From contig NZ_CP036349.1 of NCBI RefSeq assembly GCF_007753265.1, positions 963,363 to 1,027,362 on the forward strand: a stretch of DNA of 64,000 bases. Reading direction: 5' to 3'. This DNA is from Botrimarina mediterranea. Lineage in GTDB: Bacteria; Planctomycetota; Planctomycetia; Pirellulales; Lacipirellulaceae. Made by a program: the position numbers and the translations under genes. Positions within the stretch are counted from its first letter, which is position 1, and every line of letters begins with the position of its first letter. Shown here one piece after another: positions 35,755 to 58,478 of the stretch. The notes under the pieces are model-generated. The model was not told the origin of the DNA. It did no database searches and saw only the letters and a program-made list of their open reading frames with translations.

Positions 35755-36114
35755 GGCGACAGATTCCAATCGAGGCGAAGAGAGGCGCCCGAGCGGCAGT
35801 CAGCTCGGGGCTTTTAGGGTAGCCGGTGGGTCGCAGGCGATCAACGATCGAAGCGCTTATCCCCCTCGCTTTGGAGGGGTTAGGGGAGGGTCTCGAGCGT
35901 CAGTCTAGGTGGGGCTTGGGTACCGATGTGGTTCTGTGGGAGGGGTCTCCAGACCCCGATTTCGGTATCCAAACCGATTCGGCATGGTGCGCGTAATCGG
36001 GATCTGGAGACCCCTCCCACAAAGGGTTTATCGTCACGCTAAATGAGCGGCAATCTATCTGGACAACGCAGACCCTCCGGACCCTACCTACGAGGTAGGG
36101 GAGAAACTACAGCC
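35755..36114. other. Non-coding stretch containing a family D palindrome
   Basis: 360 bases without a gene. Besides the palindrome listed at 35935-36021, there is a short inverted repeat CCCTACC/GGTAGGG near 36082-36101 just after the BatA-type gene's 3' end, and a GGAGGGGTTAGGGGAGGG stretch near 35872 that resembles family B. Confidence 0.6.
35935..36021. repeat. Long palindrome, family D (tgtgggaggggtctccagac), copy 1
   Basis: Arms 35935-35960 and 35996-36021, 26 bases with one mismatch. Other copies are at 38331-38418 and 55686-55776. Confidence 0.9.
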
Positions 36115-38253
36115 TCACAGGTAGACGCGCCGGTGATAAATCCACCACTCGACGACGAGTAAACAAAGCGCCGCGATCAGTAAGGCACGCCACAATTCGT
36201 GTCGGGCCGGCGTCGCCCCCGCGGCGGCGGCGATGTCGAGGTCGCCGATCTTGATCGACGCCACCGCCGCCTCTTCGGCGTCCTCGGGAGTCTCATCCGT
36301 GCGGATTCGCACGTCGCTCTCGGCCGGATCGAACAGGTTGACCGCGAACCGCCGCGTCTCGCGATTGCCCTCCGTGACGCGATAAACCCCGAGCTCGTCC
36401 GTCAGCCGATACACGAATGGCTGCTCGCCGCGGCGGCGGAGCGTCTCGGCTTTGCCCGAGGGCGACGTGACGACGATCGACTCGGTCGCCGGCGATAGCG
36501 GCGGCAGCTCGATCGCCTCTCCAGGACGCAGCGAGCGGTCGCCCACCGCCTGCCGCGCGGCGAAGTACTCGAGCGTGTTGAGCCAGAACGTCGGAAAGCT
36601 GAGTCGGTTGATCCAGTCGGTGTTGCGTTGCAGCGCGCCGTCGATCTCGACCAGGATTGGAAATCCGAGCACCACGTCCTCGTAACGATCGCGCGGGGCG
36701 ACCGCGACGATCGGGCCCCCGGACGCTTCCACCAGCGCCGTCGCGCCGGCGGGCGGCGTCAGCAGCAGCGACTCGACGATATCGAAATTGCCGAGCTCGA
36801 CGTTGGCCAGCAGTGGGTGGCTGCGGTTCCAGTCGATGATTTGGGGAACGGACAGAGAGGGGCCAAGAGAGGGACCAGTGGCTAGGGACTGGGGGCTAGG
36901 GGACGCGCGCCAGGCTTCGCCTGGGGGGAGGACTCCGATGTAGACCGTGCTGGAGCGCGGTGGGGCTTTTGGGGTGCAGCGGTCGTAGATGATGAGGTCG
37001 TAGGTTCCTGCTGCAGCGCGGGTTTCGTAACTGTTGGACTCGAGGAACGACGGGGGTTCGACGGTGATATCGCCGAGGCGGCCCGCCCGGCCGGTGACGA
37101 GGGCTTGCTCCACCGCGACGTTGCCGCTGGTGACCAGCAGCACGCGGCTGGCTTGCGACTCGTTGATCGCGGCGTAGGCGACGTCGTCGACTGTGAGTTG
37201 ATCGTTGCTGATCGCCAAGGCGTCGCTCGATAAGCGGGCTTCGAGCACGCCGTCGCCGGAGCCGCTCCCCCCATTCAGCGCCGCCTCACCAACGGGGAAC
37301 GTCGAGCCGGCGATGTCACCGGCCGCGATCGACAGCTTCCGGGCATCGACTAGCCGCCCGCCACGTCGCAGCTCGACCACGGCCTCGGCCGCTTCGCCGG
37401 AGTAGTTCGCGACCTGGACGAACGCCTGGAGTTTGCCGGCGTCGGATTCGCTGCGACGCGTTTCGAGCGCCGTGATCGCCAGGTTGGGCGTCTCGGCCGA
37501 GCCGATCGGCACGTAAACCGGGTCGAGGTTCCCCAGCGCGAAGTCCTTCACGTCGCCGAACCGGCCGTCGCTGAAGATGAACAACGTCGCGGGCTCCTCA
37601 GGCCGCAGATCCGCCTCGGCCGTTTCTTCGGCAGCGTCAACCTCGGTCCCGCCGTTCGCTTGCGACTTAGCGGGCGACGCTAACCCGCTCGCCAACTCCA
37701 ACGCGCCCTTGAGGTCGGTCGAAGCGACCGTCGGTTCGATCGTCGCCAACCGTTCACGCAACAATCGCCGGTTGTTGGTGAACGATTGCACCACCGCGGG
37801 CTCGCCGGCGAACGAGACGATCATCGCCGACATGTCGCTGTCCATCTGATCGATCAGCCCCGCGACGTGTTCCCGCGCGGCTACAAGCCGCGCCTCGCTT
37901 CCGGCTTCGCCGTCGCCCTCACCGTCGCTCGTCGACATGCTCGCCGAATTATCAACCAGGAAGATGAGCTTGCCGCCGGTGAGCTTCGTCCCCTGCCAAC
38001 CGGGCCGCAGCACCGCAAGGATCGCCAATAGAGCCACGAGCAACTGCAATAACAGCAACAGGCTCCGCCGTAGCCGCTGCCACAGGCTGTTGACGCGCAG
38101 GTCCTCGATGCTCTTCCGCCACAGATAAGTGCTCGGCACCTCCAGCGGCGCCCGCTTCAGCTTGAGGAAGTACAGCGCGAGGATCGCCAGCGGAACCGCG
38201 CCAAGCACGGCCCACTGGGCGGGGGAGAGCGTGTTGCGAAAAAACTCGTTCAA
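36115..38253 (-). CDS. BatA/von Willebrand factor A domain membrane protein
   Basis: A 712-residue protein. N-terminal BatA unit: two membrane helices (about 13-33 and 60-82) around LYFLKLKRAPLEVPSTYLW. A VWA domain follows with the MIDAS motif DNSASMS; a C-terminal helix ends at WWIYHRRVYL. It is the last gene of the MoxR-DUF58-BatA set; in this family MoxR ATPases act on VWA partners in envelope stress or complex assembly. Around residues 450-470 a Ser/Pro/Gly/Leu-rich stretch (SPQSLATGPSLGPSLS) is encoded by G-rich repeat DNA and looks like a recent insertion. Confidence 0.85.
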   Translation of the reverse strand: MNEFFRNTLSPAQWAVLGAVPLAILALYFLKLKRAPLEVPSTYLWRKSIEDLRVNSLWQRLRRSLLLLLQLLVALLAILAVLRPGWQGTKLTGGKLIFLVDNSASMSTSDGEGDGEAGSEARLVAAREHVAGLIDQMDSDMSAMIVSFAGEPAVVQSFTNNRRLLRERLATIEPTVASTDLKGALELASGLASPAKSQANGGTEVDAAEETAEADLRPEEPATLFIFSDGRFGDVKDFALGNLDPVYVPIGSAETPNLAITALETRRSESDAGKLQAFVQVANYSGEAAEAVVELRRGGRLVDARKLSIAAGDIAGSTFPVGEAALNGGSGSGDGVLEARLSSDALAISNDQLTVDDVAYAAINESQASRVLLVTSGNVAVEQALVTGRAGRLGDITVEPPSFLESNSYETRAAAGTYDLIIYDRCTPKAPPRSSTVYIGVLPPGEAWRASPSPQSLATGPSLGPSLSVPQIIDWNRSHPLLANVELGNFDIVESLLLTPPAGATALVEASGGPIVAVAPRDRYEDVVLGFPILVEIDGALQRNTDWINRLSFPTFWLNTLEYFAARQAVGDRSLRPGEAIELPPLSPATESIVVTSPSGKAETLRRRGEQPFVYRLTDELGVYRVTEGNRETRRFAVNLFDPAESDVRIRTDETPEDAEEAAVASIKIGDLDIAAAAGATPARHELWRALLIAALCLLVVEWWIYHRRVYL
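36848..36905. repeat. G-rich intergenic-type repeat inside the BatA-type gene
   Basis: GGCTAGGGACTGGGGGCTAG and flanking GAGGGGCCAAGAGAGGGACC resemble the family B intergenic sequences but lie in frame within a coding region and encode a low-complexity stretch. Confidence 0.55.
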
Positions 38254-38261
38254 GGGTTAAC

Positions 38262-38468
38262 CACAGAGGCACGGAGGGCACGGAGGAAGCACTGAGAGAG
38301 TTTCCTGAATGCCATAGCCAACTATTCTACTGTGGGAGGGGTCTCCAGACCCCGATTACGCGCTCCATGCCGTATACGGTTAGGACACCGTAATCGGGGT
38401 CTGGAGACCCCTCCCACAAGAAATCTTACGTACCTCTGTGCGTCCTCCGCGCTCTCCGTGCCTCTGTG
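38262..38468. repeat. Outer palindrome of a nested pair (family C-like, cacagaggcacggagg)
   Basis: Left arm 38262-38286 (CACAGAGGCACGGAGGGCAC...) pairs with the right arm ending at 38468 (...CTCTCCGTGCCTCTGTG). The loop contains a complete family D palindrome. The whole unit lies between the DUF58 and BatA-type genes. Confidence 0.8.
38331..38418. repeat. Long palindrome, family D, copy 2 (nested)
   Basis: Arms 38331-38360 and 38389-38418 form a perfect 30-bp inverted repeat. It sits in the loop of another palindrome (38262-38468). Confidence 0.92.
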
Positions 38469-38479
38469 ATGAAACCGCG

Positions 38480-39358
38480 TCATCGAATAAGACCACGCTT
38501 CCGCAGCCACGTCGTCATCAGCTCCTCCACCGGTCGCTCCGTGCTTGTCAGCAGGTAGTTCATGCCGCGACGGTTGCAGTAGTCTTGGGCGCCGGCGGTG
38601 AACGTGGCGAGCGTTTCTTTGTACCGGGCGATGAGCGGGGCGCTGATCGTCACCTCGGCCATGTCGCCGTCTTCGCAGTCCACGAGGCGGAGGTCGCCCG
38701 CTACGTCGGGGTCGATCTCGGCCCCGCTCAGCACTTGGATCACGTAGGTATCGACGCGCTGGGCGACGAGGTACCGCATCGCCGCTTCGTAGCCCTGCTT
38801 GTCCATCAGGTCGGTGATCAGCACGACGACCCCTTTGCCGCTATTGCGCAGGCAGAACTTCCGCACGCCCTCTTCGAGCGACACGTTCTCGGTTGGCTCA
38901 ATCTTCTCCAGGAACTCGAGCAGCCGCGGCACGCCCCGCCGCCCACGCATCACGGGGCTCCGCTCACCGCCGAGCGTCTCGACGCGCACCCGGTCGGCCC
39001 GCGTCAGCCCAATGTACCCCAGCGCCGCGGCGAGCCGCTTGGCGTACTCGAGCTTCGTCGGCTCGCCGAACGCCATCGAAGGCGACGCGTCAATCAGCGT
39101 GTAGAAGTGCAGGTCCTCCTCTTCAAGGAAGAGCTTCACAATCAACTTGTCGAGCCGGGCGTAAAGGTTCCAGTCGAGCGCCCGCAAATCATCGCCCGCG
39201 ACGTAATTGCGAAAGTCAGCAAACTCAACACTCTGCCCTTTCTTGGCCGACCGCCGCTCCCCCTTCATCCGCCCCCGAAACACCTTGCGTGTCACGAGCT
39301 CAAGCCGCTGAAGCCGGCGGGCCAGATCGGGCGGCAGAAGGTCTTGGGTAAGCGGCAT
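38480..39358 (-). CDS. DUF58 domain protein (MoxR-associated, VWA-like)
   Basis: A 292-residue cytosolic protein. ARRLQRLELVTRKVFRGRMKGERRS and EFADFRNYVAGDDLRALDWNLYARLDKL is the DUF58 signature, followed by LHFYTLIDASPSMAFGEPTKL, a MIDAS-like DxSxS. The usual cluster order is moxR-DUF58-batA; here the gene between moxR and this one is an unrelated DUF695/RraB cassette. It probably works with the MoxR ATPase and BatA-type protein. Confidence 0.9.
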   Translation of the reverse strand: MPLTQDLLPPDLARRLQRLELVTRKVFRGRMKGERRSAKKGQSVEFADFRNYVAGDDLRALDWNLYARLDKLIVKLFLEEEDLHFYTLIDASPSMAFGEPTKLEYAKRLAAALGYIGLTRADRVRVETLGGERSPVMRGRRGVPRLLEFLEKIEPTENVSLEEGVRKFCLRNSGKGVVVLITDLMDKQGYEAAMRYLVAQRVDTYVIQVLSGAEIDPDVAGDLRLVDCEDGDMAEVTISAPLIARYKETLATFTAGAQDYCNRRGMNYLLTSTERPVEELMTTWLRKRGLIR

Positions 39359-39361
39359 GGA

Positions 39362-39469
39362 GGCGAGCCGGCGACGTTAGTCGTCGGAGGTGAATCCAGG
39401 AAAGGAGATAGGGGGATGTTGGTGATAGGGGGGATGTTGGTGATAGGGGGGATGGAGCTACCGCTCCGG
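39362..39469 (+). repeat. Left inverted repeat of the DUF695 cassette
   Basis: Starts GGCGAGCCGGCGACGTTAGT and ends near GGAGCTACCGCTCCGG. It contains a tandem duplication of an 18-base unit (39421-39438 and 39439-39456, GGTGATAGGGGGGATG plus two bases) that the right copy lacks. Its outer part matches the family E palindrome at 58387. Confidence 0.88.
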
Positions 39470-39486
39470 TGTCAAAAGCATCTCGG

Positions 39487-40245
39487 CTATGGTGTCTGCT
39501 TTACGATCGGCGTTTCCCATCCATCGTAGCTCCCTCCTAAATCAGCCGCCGTATCGTGCATTCGCAACGATATTGTATGGATATTATCAGGATCGACAGC
39601 ATGATTTCGCGTCAGTACGACGCAGTGCTGTAATTCGGATTCATCACTGGAGAATTGCTGCTCTACTGAAAAGCCATCGGACGTGAATTGTTCGATGAAC
39701 TTCGTTCTCGATTCGACGGTCTTAAAATAAGCCCAATGAGAGACATCGCGCGGGATCGTTCCGTTGTCACCGTCTTGCGCGAGTCTGTCGGTAAGTTTGC
39801 GATCCGAGATGACTTGCCATGTCCGGCTGTCTGGGTAGAGGAAGCCGAGGTAGATGTCCCACTCAGCATCTTCACGGCCACCAACTTCAAATTGATATTC
39901 AGGGTATCCAACCATCGCTTGAGCGAGCAAGGACTCTAAACAGATCTGGTTGTCGGAGTAGAAAAAGAAGTCTCGTTTCGCGTTGCCGGTGTTACGGCCT
40001 ACGTAAGCAATAGAGCAGCGTGCTTGGTTAACTGCGGTGCTGACCGACTCTTCAATTTCGATAAGTCTGTCGTACTCGGAGTTGCTGGAAAGTCCATCTG
40101 GGCGCGGATCACGCATGTGAAGTCGTAGCCACCCGACCCAGTCCAAAGCTGGTACAGGCGCCTGCTGGCGGATGCCAACATCGAACAGAATCGATGCGGG
40201 TTTGTCTTCGACTTGGCACAGGTAGATTTCCCAGTGGTCAGACAT
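39487..40245 (-). CDS. DUF695 plus RraB-like domain protein
   Basis: A 252-residue cytosolic protein. The N-terminal ~125 residues (WEIYLCQVEDKPASILFD, LRLHMRDPRPDGLSS, FFFYSDNQICLESLL) match DUF695. The C-terminal ~110 (WDIYLGFLYPDSRTWQVISD, RDVSHWAYFKTVESRTKF) match the RraB fold, named for an inhibitor of ribonuclease E. Two sample lines of the gene (39541-39660) are 47% GC, well below its neighbours. It lies between inverted repeats and separates moxR from its DUF58 partner. Function unknown; related proteins often sit in toxin/immunity-like loci. Confidence 0.82.
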   Translation of the reverse strand: MSDHWEIYLCQVEDKPASILFDVGIRQQAPVPALDWVGWLRLHMRDPRPDGLSSNSEYDRLIEIEESVSTAVNQARCSIAYVGRNTGNAKRDFFFYSDNQICLESLLAQAMVGYPEYQFEVGGREDAEWDIYLGFLYPDSRTWQVISDRKLTDRLAQDGDNGTIPRDVSHWAYFKTVESRTKFIEQFTSDGFSVEQQFSSDESELQHCVVLTRNHAVDPDNIHTISLRMHDTAADLGGSYDGWETPIVKQTP

Positions 40246-40383
40246 TCAATCTATTGCCTTGGATAATCGAAGGTCTCGAGTAGCTTGTATGCCGTAACAA
40301 GAGTAAGCGAAGTTCCGACGATTGCGTCTTTGTCACTGCCGGGCCGTAACCGCGCTGACGCCTGTTACGGCCTACAGCTTACC

Positions 40384-40474
40384 GCCGGAGCGGCAGCTCC
40401 ATCCCCCCTATCACCAACATCCCCCTATCTCCTTTCCTTATCGCACCTCCGACGACTCGCGTCGCCGGCTCGCC
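40384..40474 (-). repeat. Right inverted repeat of the DUF695 cassette
   Basis: Reverse complement matches 39362-39469 apart from the missing 18-base duplication and a few substitutions (for example CG for TT after GGCGACG). Confidence 0.88.
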
Positions 40475-40618
40475 GCCTTCTGGCCAATCCGTCAGACTTT
40501 CTTTGATCATTCGCGGCGCCTCCAGCCCCTAGTGAGTAAGCCCCGACTGCCCTATGTATGGCGAAGTGCACGTATGAACATTATAGCCAACTCGGTGGCC
40601 ATTTTCGCCTAGAAAATC

Positions 40619-40656
40619 ACCGGAGCGACAGCTCCATCCCCCTTCCTAAACGCACC
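40619..40656 (-). repeat. Third, internally deleted copy of the cassette end repeat
   Basis: CCGGAGCGACAGCTCCATCC followed by CCCTTCCTAAACGCACC, in the same orientation as the right repeat but lacking its central part. It ends one base before the moxR stop codon. Confidence 0.7.
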
Positions 40657-40657
40657 A

Positions 40658-41674
<1,017 letters not shown>

Positions 41675-55685: not shown

Positions 55686-55776
55686 CTGTGGGAGGGGTCT
55701 CCAGACGCCGATGACGCGCACCACGCCGTACTCGGAATGGATGCCGTAATCGGGGTCTGGAGAACCCCTCCCACAG
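55686..55776. repeat. Long palindrome, family D, copy 3
   Basis: Arms 55686-55712 and 55749-55776, one substitution and one extra base. It matches the copies at 35935 and 38331. Confidence 0.9.
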
Positions 55777-58386: not shown

Positions 58387-58478
58387 GGCGAGCCGGCGAC
58401 GTTAGTCGTCGGTGGGAAGCGAGCAAGACTTTCAATCTCTCTGCGGGTTCCACCCCCGATTAACATCGGGGGCTCGCC
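58387..58478. repeat. Palindrome, family E (ggcgagccggcgacgttagt), intergenic copy
   Basis: Begins GGCGAGCCGGCGACGTTAGT and ends CATCGGGGGCTCGCC, with terminal GGCGAGCC/GGCTCGCC arms and internal TNACGT cores. It fills the gap between two minus-strand genes. The same family forms the outer part of the DUF695 cassette repeats and lies inside the DUF1844 gene. Confidence 0.82.

Follow-up and report, generated by a model that had tools for sequence, protein, structure and literature searches.

Nested inverted repeats at the moxR-DUF58 junction of Botrimarina mediterranea frame a small gene that differs between sister species

How does a single small gene of foreign composition come to lie between two conserved genes, with no transposase beside it? 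Bacterial genomes gain and lose single small genes of unclear role rapidly, and to our knowledge the vehicle for most of them is not known. The question is raised here by a stretch of 64,000 nucleotides from Botrimarina mediterranea (NZ_CP036349.1, positions 963,363 to 1,027,362; the window), in which the DUF58 gene (38480..39358, minus strand; PF01882, E 3.8e-32) and the moxR gene (40658..41674, minus strand; PF07726, E 2.3e-62) are the conserved flanks of a cargo gene, and a batA-type gene (36115-38253) follows on the same strand. An earlier note, made from the sequence alone, had placed these three genes at the same coordinates and had described the gene between moxR and DUF58 as a low-GC DUF695/RraB gene, bounded by inverted repeats of about 90 bases, that looked like a recently arrived non-autonomous cassette or a gene spread by repeat recombination. 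Pfam bears out the identity of the cargo gene (39487..40245, minus strand), whose 252-aa product matches DUF695 (E 3e-31) and RraB (E 5.1e-23). The low GC was also borne out: the whole ORF has 51.3% (GC3 56%), a little above the 47% that had been counted in 120 bases, versus 66.1% (GC3 90%) for moxR. As the note had said, the region between the arms holds no ORF resembling a transposase, judging from the ORF list of the window inspected by eye.

The inverted repeats proved to be of the claimed size, the right arm measuring about 93 bases and the left about 111 including an 18-base duplication. They pair in two registers: 39359-39436 is complementary to 40400-40477 (78 nt, 90%), and beyond the duplication 39429-39469 pairs with 40385-40425 (41 nt, 98%). 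The registers are offset by the exact duplication already noticed in the left arm, where 39411-39428 is 100% identical to 39429-39446. Used as a whole-genome query, the left arm retrieves the right arm with an E-value of 2.1e-23. The shortened third copy that had been reported is present as a partial arm at 40618-40642 (25 nt, 92%).

The arms are stacked layers of distinct repeats, named A, B and C from outside to inside, plus a layer D on the moxR side only. Layer A is a REP hairpin (pattern GGCGAGCCGGC-S-ACG..AGT-S-GTCGG), which lies at 39362..39387 on the DUF58 side (plus strand, 0 mismatches) and at 40449..40474 on the moxR side (minus strand, 1 mismatch). Layer B (pattern AGGAAAGGAGATAGGGGGATGTTGGTGATAGGGGGGAT) has a 32-bp arm core that is matched without mismatches at 39404..39435 (plus strand, DUF58 side) and 40401..40432 (minus strand, moxR side); the 18-bp tandem duplication of its left arm spans 39411..39446 (plus strand). 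Layer C, a GGAGCT..GCTCCGG palindrome (pattern GGAGCTGCCGCTCCGG), occupies 39447..39469 on the left (plus strand, 1 mismatch) and 40385..40407 on the right (minus strand, 0 mismatches). It is rare, with 4 sites in the genome of the window and 4 in one sister, G001 (at most 2 mismatches), and none in the 21 other genomes searched. Layer D, upstream of the cargo gene (40287..40375, no strand assigned), is an imperfect hairpin with GTAGGCCGTAAC... arms (5 and 3 mismatches); it does not appear to fit the integron attC core. The third arm copy, recognised by pairing and by the C pattern search, is a truncated B-C arm adjoining moxR (40620..40642, minus strand), and the stretch between it and the frame (40478..40618, no strand assigned) is, by eye, possibly the remnant of an earlier insert. 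Promoter-like and terminator-like sites around the arms number 1 and 2, against 1.1 and 1.1 expected from shuffles. A structured RNA was considered and rejected, as all four Rfam matches scored far below the gathering threshold; three of them fall on a palindrome of another family, E, at 38324-38423, and one lies elsewhere.

The genome of the window (G000) was compared with three other genomes of the genus (G001, G002 and G003), one genome per species. In G001, the same junction reads A-B-C-D, a 143-aa DMP19 gene (E 1.9e-18) and C-B-A, with a diverged right B and with D in the same place as in G000. In G003, it reads A-B, a 216-aa DUF4082 gene (E 2.2e-9; PEP-CTERM-like end by eye), a decayed B without A, and then a ThuA gene. 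Read from moxR towards DUF58, the three cargo genes share one orientation, and they have a GC3 of 50-56% versus 90-96% in the moxR genes of their own species. An alignment of the G000 and G001 frames covers 198 bp (82%) on the left and 163 columns (72%) on the right, and the homology ends at window positions 40286 and 39472, the inner edges of D and C; the two cargo ORFs do not match at E<=0.01. G000 has an extra stretch of about 180 bp, with the third arm copy, adjoining moxR.

G001-G003 and 32 other genomes of the family lack any match to the DUF695-RraB protein. Its absence there agrees with the recent arrival proposed by the earlier note; a recent jump of the unit as a whole was not supported, as the frame occupies the same junction in two sisters. 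Elsewhere in the order, 2 of 23 genomes match, at 41% and 29%, and a wider search yielded relatives of at most 40% identity, from several phyla as judged by record titles, in the 80 kept of 136 loci (alignment A2 took 34 of these 80, with L274 left out). The DMP19 protein of G001 was found in neither G000 nor G003, which led us to reject an exchange of cargo among the slots of the genus; the protein has matches in G005, G013 and G018, and weak ones in G036 and G002.

Layer B (at most 3 mismatches) has 7 sites in G001, 1 in G003 and 0 in G002, and it is absent from all 35 genomes searched outside the genus. Since the sole B arm of G003 lies at the moxR slot, the frame probably predates the gene, and a change of contents alone would have followed. 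Inheritance of the A-B frame with replacement of the gene is probably a likelier history than three independent landings.

We therefore hypothesize that the moxR-DUF58 junction is a gene-exchange slot, an inherited frame of nested repeats in which a single small foreign gene is replaced by lineage, and we give this reading slightly better than an even chance. Our model suggests that the A-B frame, which in G000 and G001 also encloses C and D, predates the split of G000, G001 and G003, and that the gene inside was then replaced in different lineages, by DUF695-RraB, DMP19 and DUF4082. Incoming DNA, or DNA from another locus, that carries the same repeats would recombine with the frame or with the genes immediately flanking it, the shared frame most likely supplying the homology. 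Layer A would probably be the product of a RAYT system and layer B that of another mover, and neither need act in the swap. Observed directly are the same frame in the same place around different genes and a G000-G001 homology that stops at the inner repeat edges; the swap is seen between species only, each represented by one genome.

The pattern of shared arms, a different gene and a remnant of the replaced gene repeats at a second slot, 3' of a gene that we take by eye to encode phosphoglycerate mutase (apgM). In G000, this slot reads A-B-(CGCAAGCGG)-CPBP gene-arm, the CPBP protease gene lying at 3850165-3850857 and its product being Rce1-like (Pfam E 2.1e-11). In G001, matching arms, one of them diverged, surround a gene for 112 aa with no Pfam match. 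The left homology between the two covers 134 bp at 87%, and the interiors (549 versus 458 bp) are unrelated. On the right, homology resumes within the CPBP ORF itself, in its final ~45 bp, and G001 therefore appears to keep the tail of the replaced gene. One of the two breakpoints is inside the old gene rather than in a repeat, layer A is present on one side only of this slot, and the B arm of G001 on that side has diverged past the scan threshold, all of which count against the gene-exchange slot. G003 and G002 have other sequence there, with no arm seen.

The earlier note had also anticipated other genes bracketed by the same repeats, and these were found in the CPBP protease gene and in a PDDEXK_3 gene of G000 (about 5650895), which has a B arm on one side and a decayed right arm. 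Arms were also found next to two genes that we take by eye to be ilvD and nadA. On the 3' side of ilvD, G000 has a one-sided B-C arm with two low-GC ORFs, and G001, G002 and G003 have other sequence, with no arm seen. On the 3' side of nadA, a Cys-rich gene of G001 is accompanied by two A-B-C copies that are direct rather than inverted repeats, and G000 has a similar Cys-rich gene (by eye) with A but no B. The nadA and ilvD arrangements count against the proposed exchange, as does the moxR slot of G003, with its decayed right arm that lacks A and is followed by a ThuA gene.

A whole-genome search with the repeats, as the earlier note had proposed, revealed that the arms belong to families dispersed through the genome. 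Layer B was found at 64 sites in G000 (33 forward, 31 reverse; at most 3 mismatches; 0 with the reversed-pattern control). In the stretches fetched around these hits (37 loci), 74 arm calls were made, the 63 with at most 7 mismatches being taken for the flank profile, and 31 inverted B pairs were called. Their spacing is 131-287 bp in 29 of the 31, one of which, 2133526/2133657, is a false partner (true partner 2133741, spacing 215); the two wide pairs are those at moxR (979) and at the second slot (661). The usual pair lies about 215 bp apart around noncoding DNA, some pairs hold other palindromes in place of the usual centre, and genes are enclosed by two pairs and by a third in which one arm has decayed. 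A single family with nearly constant spacing (210-222 bp) emerges from the alignment of twenty pairs, and their mean identity is 94% and 90% in the arms, 58% in the central hairpin, and 36% and 37% in the intervening segments. Constraint, conversion or replacement could each give such a contrast. As MITEs do, layer B forms short multicopy elements with terminal inverted repeats and with sites that are empty in relatives; the 20 copies lack the MITE trait of an interior conserved like the ends.

Empty sites in sisters, which the earlier note had expected of a mobile element, were sought at four B elements near the two slots, a non-random choice. The flanks of element 1040360 are 17 bp apart in G003 and separated by 77 bp of other sequence in G001; those of 1051729 are 29 bp apart in G003, and the G001 alignment runs through the site and falls into no clear class. 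For element 3842006, the flanks are 74 bp apart in G001 versus about 440 in G000, and in G003 and G002 a single flank aligned and no arm was seen; at 3863517, an unrelated stretch of 192 bp, without an arm, takes the place of the element in G001. With sister flanks 17-77 bp apart, three of these four elements look like insertions. The expectation thus held for B elements elsewhere; at moxR, no exact empty site was seen. By eye, no target duplication was recognised at moxR or at the four B sites, the flanks being too diverged. Layer B adjoins none of the 5 Y1 (Y1_Tnp) transposase genes found in G000.

Layer A has 137 sites in G000 (at most 1 mismatch; control 0) and, among the matches listed, forms many plus/minus pairs 47 bp apart. 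One A pair, with 5 and 1 mismatches and a spacing of 50 bp, lies just after a Y1-transposase gene at 4085090, which is RAYT-type, with an HUH motif and a similar hairpin in front of the gene, both by eye. With its many copies, its 47-bp pairs and the pair at the RAYT-type gene, A thus has the behavior of a RAYT-associated REP. Several of the A sites read lie right after a stop codon, and the inverted A pair of the moxR slot is 1.08 kb apart. Layer A flanks B on the outside at both ends of the moxR slot, at one end of the second slot, and at nadA in G001. As no A was found within 120 bp of any of the 30 other B pairs tested, it is at gene slots that the A-B composite occurs.

The same junction was followed into other genera. 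DUF58 was matched in 31 of 35 genomes, and 30 loci were fetched; moxR lies upstream of DUF58 in 23 of the 30, a count in which three loci without moxR (G010, G043 and G039) were not followed further. The moxR-DUF58 gap is at most 280 bp in 16 of the 23 and exceeds 500 bp in 7. Three of these long junctions are the framed ones of G000, G001 and G003, and the other four (G013, G015, G019 and G021) hold ORFs that were read by eye as a VapBC-like pair, a transposase-like ORF, a GxxExxY-like ORF and one unknown. Layer B (at most 3 mismatches) is absent from these four genomes, and layer A is absent from G015, the sole genome checked for it. The four genomes of other genera that hold ORFs without B arms indicate that the junction takes up genes without the frame. 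The junction therefore attracts small genes across the family, and the B frame was found in this genus only. The same cargo gene at this place without the repeats, which the earlier note had said would speak against mobility, was not seen in distant relatives, the ORFs in the four genomes being different ones. As a separate observation, moxR was not found within about 4-5 kb upstream of the conserved DUF58 in G002, G007, G005 and G018 (L096-L099).

The strongest rival to the gene-exchange slot is an ordinary insertion hotspot, at which small foreign genes are swapped repeatedly through recombination in the core genes on either side and at which REPs and MITEs, as passive intergenic repeats, also accumulate. 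We consider this somewhat unlikely. The ORFs without B arms in G013, G015, G019 and G021, which make up 4 of the 7 junctions longer than 500 bp, favor it and are counter-evidence to the repeat-framed exchange; the abundance of REP A (137 copies, at several sites right after a stop codon) and the ilvD 3' end, where three species have different sequence and G000 alone has arms, point the same way. Against a hotspot of this kind stand the repeats on both sides of the cargo in G000 and G001 with homology ending at their inner edges, the recurrence of the arrangement, swap included, at a second locus, and an A-B composite at gene slots when 0 of 30 other B pairs have A within 120 bp. A wider form of the exchange model, in which inverted arm pairs of this genus in general are exchange frames with nearly constant arms (90-94%) and exchanged contents (noncoding filler, palindromes or a whole gene), appears unlikely to us; if it were true, a dispersed repeat family would provide the chromosome with tens of slots for foreign single genes, with no need of a dedicated transposase or integrase.

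Alternatively, the arms could be transposon ends served by a transposase in trans, with arms and gene jumping as a unit, as in the mobile insertion cassette MIC231. The inverted arms, the passenger gene and the missing transposase fit such a cassette, as do the B elements that are insertions with empty sites in sisters and the two B pairs, plus the third with a decayed arm, that enclose genes. This reading needs three landings at one spot in the same orientation, yet G003 has a single B arm; moreover, no target duplication was recognised (the flanks are diverged), and no B lies beside the 5 Y1 genes, the only transposase family searched. Because three species have the frame at one and the same site, we give simple transposition of the whole unit a lower rank and regard the cassette as quite improbable. 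It is highly implausible, in our view, that the structure is an opened REPIN, in which a B-gene-B unit inserted into the loop of a REPIN (A, short loop, A') or in which the RAYT moves long A-to-A' units with a gene. In favor of such an origin, A copies often form plus/minus pairs 47 bp apart and the inverted A pair found here is 1.08 kb apart, there is an A pair beside the RAYT-type Y1 gene at 4085090, and the linker beside the left A resembles, by eye, the loop of an A pair at 3869736; the linkers are nevertheless unlike the other loops read (by eye), and the second slot has A on one side only. We retain the gene-exchange slot as the preferred reading.

The cargo protein itself was also considered. 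The fold of DUF695-RraB is predicted with confidence (AlphaFold2, mean pLDDT 95.8). A profile search retrieved one solved structure, 1nxi, which matches the C-terminal half, and a Foldseek search with the model returned the same chain, 1nxi, as the best hit, followed by ferredoxin-like and other folds of low TM. No paper found by text search of open-licence PMC names DUF695. A defence-system reading of the cargo was tried and rejected, PADLOC giving no match (E<=0.01) for 7 of the 8 cargo proteins; the PDDEXK_3 protein has a weak match only (E 0.0027). A role of DUF695 and DMP19 as immunity proteins was likewise considered; among the open-licence PMC matches listed, the literature on immunity and polymorphic toxins does not name DMP19.

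The closest known parallel is the minimal mobile element of Neisseria, in which different whole genes lie between the same two conserved genes and are incorporated solely by homologous recombination (PMC3898611). The likeness extends to a region between two conserved genes (moxR lies upstream of DUF58 in 23 of 30 loci), to different whole-gene cassettes, seen in G000, G001 and G003 and so between species only, and to low-GC, probably foreign genes (PMC3898611). Unlike the minimal mobile element as described there, the cassette is edged here by nested inverted dispersed repeats, and the comparison is between species rather than strains. What our locus would add to that pattern is an apparently inherited, symmetric repeat frame with homology ending at its inner edges, recurring at a second locus. 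The same text describes Correia elements, which resemble layer B as inverted-repeat miniature elements without a transposase, and relates a suggestion that neisserial repeat arrays promote exchange at adjacent loci (PMC3898611). In contrast to the Correia elements in that description, B copies agree in the arms (90-94%) and differ in the interior (36-37%, centre 58%).

MIC231 and mic-qnrD likewise lack a transposase and carry a passenger gene flanked by imperfect inverted repeats, and the mic of pVERM has similar ends with partly different contents (PMC3913671); unlike these, the moxR frame appears inherited at one site. Layer A resembles the REP/REPIN elements of RAYT systems as presented in PMC3116915 and PMC3733652, being a short hairpin in more than 100 copies, often paired 47 bp apart and found by a RAYT-type gene. 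In REPINs too, the spacer is less conserved than the ends (PMC3116915). Unlike a REPIN in those descriptions, the A pair here encloses a gene and a second arm family and has a spacing of 1.08 kb (PMC3116915, PMC3733652). Such frames in planctomycetes are not described among the open-licence PMC matches listed, and a report may well exist. The significance of the locus lies in a frame that would be passed on while the gene inside it changes, at two loci of one genus; with an inherited frame and an exchanged gene at both, it becomes testable whether the repeats cause exchange or merely collect where exchange happens.

Several minor observations concern the repeats elsewhere. A lone REP A copy, with no partner nearby, lies at 58387-58412 of the window. 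At L117 2106-2394 (G000:C1:367105-367393), two inverted A copies are 266 bp apart, the second inside a predicted 271-aa ORF that is uracil-DNA-glycosylase-like by eye; another reading frame of A gives a GEPATLVVGG-type peptide there. Palindrome family E (GGGGTCTGGAGACCCCTCCCACA type) forms pairs at 35935-36021 and 38331-38418 of the window, flanking the batA-type gene, and also at 55687-55774. By eye only, an E-like variant flanks a Y1-transposase gene at G000:C1:939814 (L197); the E motif scan (at most 6 mismatches) has no match at L197, which makes the link between E and the Y1 gene tentative. Finally, an E-type palindrome pair lies within or next to B pairs or single arms at L105, L109, L110, L114 and L118 in G000 and at L136 in G001, one repeat family thus lying inside another (mostly by eye).
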